NCBI GenBank assembly: GCA_002049785.1
Contig: MUKB01000042.1
Location: 1-10,119, forward strand
Length of the DNA: 10,119 nt
Reading direction: 5' to 3'
Origin: Caldifarciminota bacterium 4484_100
GTDB taxonomy: Bacteria; Hydrothermota; Tepidihabitantia; SM23-42
Of the stretch, positions 1-10,119 are shown one piece after another (position 1 is the first letter of the stretch; each line of letters opens with the position of its first letter). The notes under the pieces were generated by a model that saw only the letters and a program-made list of their open reading frames with translations, ran no database searches and was not told the origin of the DNA. Both the position numbers and the translations under genes were made by a program.

Positions 1-740
1 ATCTTGCCGAACATCTCAGCCGGAGGTTCGGTGATTCCGATATAATTGCCAAAACTTTTGCTCATCTTACGCACACCATCAGTTCCCTCTAATATCGGTA
101 GCATTATAACAACCTGGGGTTCGAGTTTAAATTCCCGCATCAATTCCCTGCCTACAAGAAGGTTGAATTTCTGGTCAGTCCCACCCAGTTCAACATCTGC
201 CTTAATCGCAACTGAATCATAACCCTGACAGAGCGGGTAGATGATTTCGTGCATATAAACCGGGATTCCCTTTTTAAGACGCTGGGAAAAATCGTCACGC
301 TCAAGAATACGGGCAACCGTATATTTGGAAGCGAGTTCAATAAAGTCGAACATCGTGAGGGAACCAAGCCATTTACTGTTATATGTTATTTCGGTTCGTT
401 TGGGATTGAGAATACGGAAGATCTGTTCTTTATATTTTGTCATATTCTTTTTTATCTGTTCTTTCGAGAGTTTGGGCCGGGTTTTTGAGAGACCGGATGG
501 ATCACCGATCATACCGGTGAAATCACCAACGATGATGACAGCAGTATGACCCAGATCCTGGAACTGTCTCAGTTTTCTCAGGACAACACTGAAACCGAGA
601 TGGATTTCCGGGCCGGATGGATCGATCCCCAGTTTTATGCGCAGATGTTTCTTCTTTTTCAGCTTTCTTATCAGCTCTTCTTCAGATATTATCTCTGCAA
701 CATTACTCTTTATTAATTGTAATTGCTTCTCGATTTCCAT
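1..740 (-). CDS. tyrS: Tyrosyl-tRNA synthetase, N-terminal part (3' end outside window)
   Basis: Class I aminoacyl-tRNA synthetase that charges tRNA-Tyr in the cytoplasm. About 246 residues are present and the frame runs off the left edge. Visible in order: MEIEKQLQL start; [13 protein letters not shown] containing the HIGH-type ATP-binding motif (HLGF, H47); a Rossmann stretch with [12 protein letters not shown] and [14 protein letters not shown]; a Tyr/tRNA-specificity region with [17 protein letters not shown]; and KMSKS at about residue 225 followed by FGNYIGI. The style is that of the TyrZ-type bacterial enzymes. The C-terminal anticodon and S4-like part lies outside the window. The ATG at 738-740 is preceded in frame by GTG GCA, so a GTG start two codons earlier is possible. 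There is no clear Shine-Dalgarno. It lies 8 bases after the stop of the radical SAM gene, so it is probably co-transcribed with it. Identity is secure. Confidence 0.95.
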
Positions 741-7834: not shown

Positions 7835-7869
7835 AAAAGGGGACAGCTGTTCGACAGCTGTCCCCTTTT
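7835..7869. terminator. Strong intrinsic terminator after the HU/IHF gene, probably bidirectional
   Basis: A perfect 15-bp stem: AAAAGGGGACAGCTG (7835-7849), loop TTCGA, CAGCTGTCCCCTTTT (7855-7869), followed by more T on the plus strand. It lies 33 bases after the HU/IHF stop. Read on the minus strand it is followed by TTT-rich sequence and lies 16 bases after the stop of the gdhA remnant, so it would also have terminated that gene. Confidence 0.92.
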
Positions 7870-7885
7870 TTAATTAATTCTCAGA

Positions 7886-8437
<552 letters not shown>

Positions 8438-8483: not shown

Positions 8484-10119
8484 CTATTTCAACCACACCA
8501 CCTTTGTTGTCTGTGTGCGATTGCCCGCCTCAATATGGATGAAGTAAATGCCCTGGGATAATCTAAAACTGTGATTTACTGTAAAAGGACCATCACGAGA
8601 AATCACCGGGCTGACACCAAAAATGTTATTCACCACAGAACCGGCCTGCTCCTCAACCCCGGGCCAGTTCCAATAACGGTTATATGCAGTATCCGCATTC
8701 GCCTGTAAGTCACCCAGGTTATCACCACTCAATATCGCAAAGGCCACAACCACAGTACTACCCGGCACCAAAGTAAACGGACCCGCCGAATTACAGGTCG
8801 ACCAATCATAAGGACGATCACTCGATGAATTCTGAATCGAATCATCCATAAACTGAATCTGTATATTGTCCGGTAAACCACTATACGGATAAACATACTG
8901 CGCATGATCAATCGACGCCAAATTCGCCGCTGCTGTGTCACGCGGAGGATCCAGTATCTCAACTCCACAATACGGCGTCGACTCATACACCCAGGTCAAA
9001 TTACGAACCGCCTCAGACGAACCCTGATTGCTCGAACTGCTCCCAATATCAAAATCCATAAAAACCGCCGCATAAAGATTATTGATCGTGGTCAAACCTT
9101 CATTCCGCAGAACAAACTTCATTATCACAAAATCATTCGCCGTCGAATCATCCCAGGCCCAGGAATATTGCTCACAAACCAAACCCTTGGACGATGGATG
9201 ATTTGAATCATCATAACACGCCGTCGCATACTCATCCCGATTGTCCGGACCCGGCTCATACATCCGCACCATCCCATCCGGCGCCGTAGTCGTCTCCCAA
9301 TCCGTATCATCACTACCCGACTCATAATAACGATCCACCACATAATTGGCATCCGTCCCCACTGCAAAACCACCATAATACAGATGATTGAGACCAGAGA
9401 TTGGATAACAGAAGCCGTCGCCTTCAGCCTGGCTTGATTCCATAAATCCTAAGGCGCCGTATCTCGTCACTGTGAATTTCACATTGCCACAGTCATGGGT
9501 GACCCAGTCAACACCAGGATTTCCTACAATGAGTGTAAAACTCAGGTCGGTCGTATAGCCACCATCCGCAGTGACATTGAGCGAGAACTCGATGGGTGTT
9601 CCTTCTGGTGTATTGGGATCGACCGTAACATTGTATGGGTCAGCGGTGTTTTCAATACTATCACCAGGTGCAATGGTGCCATAAGCGCCATTGGGATCGT
9701 TTATGGTGATATAAGAAGAATTTGATGAGAGTGTGTCCTGGACACCATTGGCAATTTCTGAGCCGCTATTCTTTAAGATAACCGTGAGGTCAGCGGTTTC
9801 TCCAGGATCAAGTATGCCGTTATTGTTCCCTCCTGTATCATAGACATTTGTTTTTATATTGGTAATATAAATCCCGGTGGCGGTATAGTCCAGGACCACA
9901 TCATCGGCGAAGACCTTCGCCGTTTCTGATGCCCCTCAACATGTATGGGCAGTTGTGTCATAAAGTGCAATTTCGATCTTCTTGATATCTCCAGGGTTGA
10001 CACCGGGAAGATTTGTCAATTCGTCATCGATGTTGAATGCATAATTATGCCACATAGAGTCATTGACGATAATGAGATGGGTTGTGCTGGAGTTCTGCCA
10101 GGGGCAGGGTGTGGTGAAA
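8484..10119 (-). CDS. Secreted beta-sandwich protein with T9SS/FlgD-like C-terminal tail; frame interrupted by one TGA; 5' end outside window
   Basis: The readable frame runs from the right edge to TAG 8484-8486, crossing one in-frame TGA (9936-9938). Upstream of the TGA is a beta-sandwich end (WHNYAFNIDDELTNLPG, then DIKKIEIALYDTTAHTC). Downstream the same protein continues with GASETAKVFADDVVLDY. Next comes a CARDB/NEW3-like adhesion domain (DTGGNNNGILDPGETADLTV). A larger domain rich in Asp, Ser, Tyr and Trp follows, with LRNEGLTTINNLYAAVF and MDFDIG, of a type seen in extracellular peptidases and surface proteins. The end, LSQGIYFIHIEAG through KVVWLK, is the last strand pair of a T9SS type A / FlgD-Ig sorting domain. 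The TGA could be a nonsense mutation, an error or selenocysteine. A GTG at 9897-9899 can start the distal part but has no ribosome-binding site. Confidence 0.7.
9898..9938 (-). promoter_or_regulatory. In-frame TGA followed by a SECIS-like hairpin
   Basis: Minus-strand order: TGA (9936-9938), GGG, lower-stem arm GCATCA (9927-9932), GAAA bulge, upper-stem arm CGGCGAA (9916-9922), loop GGTC (9912-9915), TTCGCCG (9905-9911), one unpaired A, and lower-stem arm TGATGT (9898-9903). That is 7 upper pairs and 6 lower pairs including one G-U. The apical loop starts 20 bases after the TGA. Bacterial SECIS elements place a small G-starting loop 16-37 bases after UGA, and the E. coli fdhF element, as I recall it, carries the same AGGUCU around its loop. 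Selenocysteine insertion is therefore possible but not shown. Confidence 0.4.

Follow-up and report, generated by a model that had tools for sequence, protein, structure and literature searches.

A 2026 compilation (PMC13188914, Table 1) lists 119 families and subfamilies of prokaryotic selenoproteins, among them an Omp28-related selenoprotein (NF045500) entered as GOS_C. No carbohydrate-binding-like β-sandwich family appears anywhere among the 119 entries of that table, no selenoprotein model of NCBIfam 20.0 matches any of 60 members of the family described below at E ≤ 0.1, and the open-licence literature yielded neither a published description of a jelly-roll family bearing selenocysteine (Sec) or of WOR-3/Stahlbacteria selenoproteins, nor a published type IX secretion substrate containing Sec. 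The Sec jelly-roll family is absent from the catalogues checked, namely Table 1 of PMC13188914 and NCBIfam. The window analysed here is a stretch of 10,119 nucleotides that constitutes an entire contig (C119) of a 53%-complete genome (G000), and carries a member of this family. Based on the comparative sequence evidence presented below, we consider it very probable that the in-frame TGA of this gene is decoded as Sec, and that its product is a genuine selenoprotein.

Features of the window gene, together with those of Sec-bearing neighbours of related copies, are summarized in the Table. Under the standard code, the first start past the TGA is a GTG at 9897-9899, which would yield a protein of 471 residues; the database protein P0003 is likewise 471 residues long. 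Since the window is a whole contig of an incomplete genome, the 5' part of the gene lies off the contig. Contig C9 of the same genome ends in the N-terminal half of a Sec jelly-roll domain (L154; C9 positions 1-315, minus strand, corresponding to model positions 1-107 of 200), which is preceded by a Sec Omp28-like gene. This half-domain may be what the window gene lacks at its 5' end; the C9 and C119 contig ends have just one base in common. Judged by eye, the DNA immediately downstream of the window gene appears degraded. It includes a remnant at 7886-8050 (minus strand) that we take to resemble the C-terminus of glutamate dehydrogenase, and a frame at 8052-8339 (plus strand) presumably resembling the C-terminal part of an IS110-type transposase. 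A long palindrome (AAAAGGGGACAGCTGT..ACAGCTGTCCCCTTTT) followed by T's is present at 7835-7871, and looks by eye to be either a terminator or a repeat element.

Table. Coordinates of the candidate selenoprotein gene in the window and of Sec-bearing neighbours of related loci.
Feature	Position	Strand	Remarks
Readable frame, 544 codons with TGA read as Sec	8484..10118	-	Stop TAG 8484-8486; open from the contig end (10118)
In-frame TGA, putative Sec codon	9936..9938	-	Residue 61 of open frame P0001; sole interruption of the frame
Candidate SECIS hairpin	9898..9932	-	Lower stem 9927-9932/9898-9903; upper stem 9916-9922/9905-9911; GGUC loop 9912-9915
C-terminal part of CBM-like jelly-roll domain, predicted to hold Sec	9885..10118	-	From alignments, and from model and fold comparison on a relative's domain (L160); N-terminal part beyond the contig end
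Region past the Sec domain, with motif GGNNNGILDPGET recurring in homologs	9567..9875	-	Matched by an M36 peptidase model over residues 82-184 (20.5 bits, far under cut-off)
Type IX secretion sorting tail	8496..8564	-	TIGR04183, 26.1 bits against a cut-off of 23, residues 515-541
Omp28-like thioredoxins, TGA as UxxC	L129 7287-8336 and 8450-9484; L130 10300-11367; L154 538-1314; others	L129 and L130 +; L154 -	Most with a type IX-like tail
Small lipoprotein-like proteins, TGA as UxxC	L129 11576-12277; L133 1889-2614; L077 866-1594	L129 +; L133 and L077 -	CSEAP after the signal; thioredoxin-like start

The seven close relatives that we name are metagenome-assembled genomes of candidate division WOR-3/Candidatus Stahlbacteria. 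When the N-terminal 110 residues were searched against 65 genomes belonging to the class, 46 gave matches, that in G021 lying solely beyond the Sec column. Matches reaching this column comprised 102 distinct loci, 101 of which have TGA at the same column, while the remaining locus (L106) has Cys. A search at the level of the phylum matched 53 of 147 genomes: nine further loci (L144-L152) all carry TGA at the column, G117, G118 and G119 gave weak TGA-free matches only, and some other TGA-free matches end short of the column. Because standard gene callers treat UGA as a stop, database homologs would be expected to terminate at the Sec column. This was the case, within three residues, for 119 of the best 120 of 385 homologs, while P0210 reads through; the 187-residue WOR-3 'hypothetical protein' P0111, for instance, ends at Sec. 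P0210 (294 residues) and L106, whose hairpin is partly unpaired, are the two Cys homologs among the matches listed, with the column assigned by alignment and by eye. Neither Trp nor Ser was seen at the column among the homologs aligned, so that the alignment proposed as a check in the initial annotation gives TGA, with Cys in L106 and P0210. That annotation had also regarded the protein as an oddity without known example; instead, it belongs to a family of about a hundred loci, found alongside other apparently exported Sec proteins. Its description of Cys-Sec-Gly in a sorted surface protein holds as far as the sorting tail of the window protein is concerned, but the preceding Cys is not conserved (C in 55 and G in 31 of 101 loci). 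Short stand-alone Sec jelly-rolls that end soon past the Sec were also observed (L113, L116, L123, L125 and L127), some of them lipoprotein-like by eye.

The hairpin of the window begins 3 bases past the TGA and comprises 6 lower and 7 upper pairs with a GGUC loop after 20 nt. Folding reproduced this two-part structure as initially annotated, with a minimum free energy of -17.2 kcal/mol. Considered as a lone sequence the hairpin is modestly unusual (z -2.2), with 7 of 200 shuffles folding equally well. An Rfam search of window positions 9800-10119 returned no SECIS family, its one chance match scoring under the gathering score. We assessed the fit to bacterial SECIS (bSECIS) elements using our own version of the published rules, under which the apical loop lies 16-37 nt downstream and a G occupies one of its first two bases. 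The window hairpin, with GGUC at 20 nt and -15.7 kcal/mol in this test, passes, in agreement with the initial annotation, as do 99 of 101 family loci compared to 20 of 101 shuffled sequences. Since the same rules are also satisfied by 30 of 143 ordinary TGA stops from the loci that we fetched, the window hairpin by itself constitutes weak evidence, and it is the comparative evidence that carries the case.

We aligned the stems of the 101 TGA loci by anchoring them on an A-x-V-x-A motif. Every one of the 101 loci has standard pairs at a1-b2, a2-b1, a3-f3, k1-f2, k2-f1 and k3-v3, while t3-b3 is paired in 98, and the outermost tested pair, t2-d1, in just 58. The GU of the loop is invariant, and the apical loop lies 17-23 nt downstream of the UGA. 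Four pair types occur at a3-f3 (GC 87, AT 12, TA 1, CG 1), a synonymous pair linking two third codon positions, and five at k1-f2 (AT 64, GC 31, GT 4, CG 1, TA 1). Among 97 distinct stems, the number of double-changed cells was 71, compared to 14.8 in shuffles, with none of 500 shuffles reaching 71, and 94.3% of cells were paired, compared to 30-61% once the partner was slid. A cruder covariation measure failed to reach significance (6 pairs changed on both sides against 4.1 in shuffles, 51 of 500 of which attain the value of 6). When mapped on a tree of 98 loci built from the protein upstream of the TGA only, the minimum numbers of changes were 11 for a3-f3, 12 for t3-b3, 10 for k1-f2, 6 for k3-v3 and 4 for k2-f1. 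Codon choice within the stem is similarly skewed: GCG is used in 87 of 101 loci, compared to a frequency of 0.25 elsewhere in the same ORFs, and GTC in 90 of 101, compared to 0.33. We infer that RNA pairing largely accounts for the protein variants AKVFAD, AEVSAD and ARVLAD. Taken together, these patterns of evolution suggest that SelB, together with Sec-tRNA-Sec, would bind the hairpin just behind the UGA and insert Sec, and that translation would go on past the UGA to the TAG at 8484.

The initial annotation had proposed a search for the sel genes. The window genome encodes a tRNA-Sec (72.3 bits, anticodon TCA), while selA, selB and selD were not found over cut-off, an absence that its 53% completeness may cause. 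By our own thresholds, 49 of 61 genomes have selA, selB or tRNA-Sec, and 41 of these 49 carry the family, against 0 of the 12 in which none of the three was found (Fisher's exact test, 7e-8). One of these 12 (G014) has a TGA-containing selD; moving it to the other class gives 41 of 50 versus 0 of 11 (4e-7). Both values overstate independence, since a single family (f4) accounts for 8 of the 12 genomes lacking Sec genes. Conversely, 8 of the 49 genomes with Sec genes are without the jelly-roll family. Both selA and selB are present in most family-bearing relatives. Among family-bearing genomes, selA was not found in G000, G027 and G051, selB was not found in G000, G009, G054 and G060, and laxer filters still gave no clear tRNA-Sec in 7 of 41 (G004, G007, G009, G015, G027, G054 and G060), the best candidate of G027 scoring 48.4 bits, barely over the gathering score of 47. 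G007 (L077), a single-contig genome, has family copies and selB, yet its selA is a mere fragment and a clear tRNA-Sec was not found, gaps that reflect either sequencing errors or real loss. As a positive control, the single expected TGA was recovered in 21 of 22 over-cut-off selD matches of the relatives.

In a model of a relative's domain (L160; pLDDT 93.7), the Sec occupies the loop joining the final two strands of a carbohydrate-binding-module-like β-sandwich, and fold comparison of this model identified a jelly-roll. The list of folds compared by VIA-align was restricted to those ranked by Foldseek, so that absence of a family from it means nothing. PF02018 (CBM_4_9) matches 12 of 60 members at E ≤ 0.1, with a best value of 3.2e-4, and a precomputed PF02018 match exists for P0156. 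Apart from the Sec column, the domain has no conserved Cys/Sec column: the runner-up shows Cys in 41 of the 60 members, and a conserved partner Cys, sought within the domain in the same members, was not found. As judged from its sequence, the region beyond the Sec domain is possibly Ig-like. At the C-terminus, Pfam PF18962 matches residues 519-541 with 19.9 bits, under its cut-off of 27. Relatives start with signal-peptide-like stretches, as assessed by eye, and together with the type IX sorting tail these lead us to predict that the window product is exported. This product is probably released following export, or anchored at the surface.

Copies of the family are located near selA, selB or tRNA-Sec in six of the regions that we fetched (L064, L077 and L128-L131). 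Beside some copies lie genes for apparently exported proteins in which an in-frame TGA forms a UxxC motif, either Omp28-like thioredoxins with a sorting tail or lipoproteins. Of the 94 loci with sufficient upstream flank, 16 have a Sec thioredoxin-like gene whose end lies no more than 1.5 kb before the Sec jelly-roll gene; Omp28-like Sec genes immediately precede the latter at 16 loci. Downstream, a Sec thioredoxin-like gene starts within 3 kb in 14 of 73 loci (12 of the lipoprotein type and 2 of the Omp28 type), with lipoprotein-like Sec genes found ~1.5 kb downstream of several copies. Upstream and downstream genes are both present in L025, L027, L028, L032, L077 and L078. These numbers are undercounts, because genes cut by the end of a locus are missed. 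The SECIS rules were passed by the neighbouring Sec thioredoxin-like genes in 24 of 25 and 13 of 14 cases. Among the matches listed, the Omp28-like proteins of the non-Sec genomes G028, G029, G030, G032, G034, G036, G040, G042, G044 and G046 are free of TGA, and Sec-using genomes have both TGA-bearing and TGA-free Omp28-like paralogs. Five WOR-3 Omp28-like neighbours, though related to NF045500, scored 28-56 bits against it, far below its curated cut-off of 200. At L131, the frame at 10714-11133 (minus strand) and that upstream of it appear by eye to encode another protein with a sorting-type tail, and contain an in-frame TGA in the context WCIGGS-U-SPPG.

What would a Sec in this position do? 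The most likely role, in our hypothesis, is that of a solitary extracellular selenol, which would form mixed selenenyl-sulfide or diselenide bonds with the UxxC thioredoxin-like selenoproteins encoded beside some copies, while the variable C-terminal parts would supply the target. The case for an extracellular redox role shared with these adjacent Sec thioredoxins comes from the gene context of a minority of the loci, and we view such a role as plausible, if a little short of an even chance. Three kinds of putative selenoprotein, the Sec jelly-roll with its variable C-terminal parts, the Sec Omp28-like thioredoxin with its type IX tail and the Sec lipoprotein thioredoxin, are encoded next to one another in some genomes, and in several they adjoin selA, selB and selC. 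It is tempting, albeit tentative, to envision a WOR-3 extracellular selenium redox system in which these three apparently exported kinds would transfer electrons, or link partners covalently, outside the cell. Alternatively, the Sec may serve the sugar-binding-like domain in binding a metal or small molecule rather than in redox exchange with thioredoxin-like neighbours. The carbohydrate-binding-module fold of the model and the lack of a conserved partner Cys in the domain would suit such a function, whereas the Sec thioredoxin-like genes adjoining some copies suggest the redox system instead; we consider the binding function possible, if somewhat doubtful.

Alternatives to Sec decoding fared less well. 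Were the UGA a true stop subject to regulated readthrough or reinitiation, the locus would express two proteins, and the hairpin would be a regulatory element rather than a SECIS. Possible starts are indeed present just past the UGA, where database proteins such as P0064 and P0067 have their first residue. However, the stop at the column is TGA in every one of the 101 loci and never TAA or TAG, the hairpin matches the published SECIS loop pattern, the downstream product would be without a signal peptide despite bearing a sorting tail, and none of the 12 genomes lacking Sec genes yielded a member of the family. This explanation is therefore very unlikely.

Less likely still is a nonsense mutation, such as the TGG-to-TGA change offered initially as the main rival, or an assembly error in a decaying gene. 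The position of the window at a contig end, as well as the glutamate-dehydrogenase-like remnant and transposase-like piece seen by eye just downstream, would fit such an event, but neither a mutation nor an error can recur at one column in 101 loci (101 of the 102). Coding constraint argues against decay as well. In 39 close pairs, which are non-independent, the median dN/dS was 0.104 before the TGA (32 usable pairs; maximum 0.26) and 0.142 after it (26 usable pairs; maximum 0.52), counting the downstream part from the 12th codon past the TGA. This result, together with the frame running from 10118 to 8484-8486, bears out the earlier view that the sequence is protein-like on both sides of the TGA, and the compensatory changes in the hairpin likewise contradict decay. 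Finally, a general reassignment of UGA in these bacteria (e.g. to Trp or Gly), for which the recurrence of in-frame TGA in several gene families of these genomes might speak, can be dismissed for practical purposes, as initially anticipated, since TGA terminates three intact frames of the window (protease-like, FAD enzyme and HU/IHF, as named by eye) as well as 17 of the 101 frames of the family itself, is not seen in the SelA and SelB matches listed for the same genomes, and is followed by a SECIS-like hairpin in 99 of 101, 24 of 25 and 13 of 14 of the conserved cases tested, with Cys the alternative residue seen.

If Sec decoding of the window TGA is correct, these findings would add a family of selenoproteins with Sec housed in a fold of the sugar-binding type, and probably extracellular. 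Since public annotation cuts genes at Sec, further genes of this sort may be hidden, and with few Cys forms seen, prediction methods dependent on Cys homologs could miss the family. The short hairpin, with its compensatory changes over roughly a hundred natural variants, also provides a data set for SECIS rules.

In common with selenoproteins decoded by way of SelB and a bSECIS, the Sec jelly-roll family displays a UGA followed by a stem-loop with its loop at 17-23 nt, a covarying pair closing a small loop that contains GU, co-occurrence with sel genes, and Cys forms. In contrast to those tabulated in Table 1 of PMC13188914, its Sec is solitary, with no conserved CxxU or UxxC, and Cys forms are rare among the matches listed. 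The Omp28-related selenoprotein NF045500 is a Sec protein resembling the neighbours of the WOR-3 family; being thioredoxin-like with a UxxC, it differs in fold from the Sec jelly-roll. Compared to CBM_4_9 (PF02018), which only 12 of 60 members match even at E 0.1, the family has a Sec-bearing loop. Like type IX substrates (TIGR04183), the window protein has a C-terminal sorting tail and its relatives have, by eye, signal-peptide-like starts; unlike them, the family carries selenocysteine, as predicted here, in the exported part.
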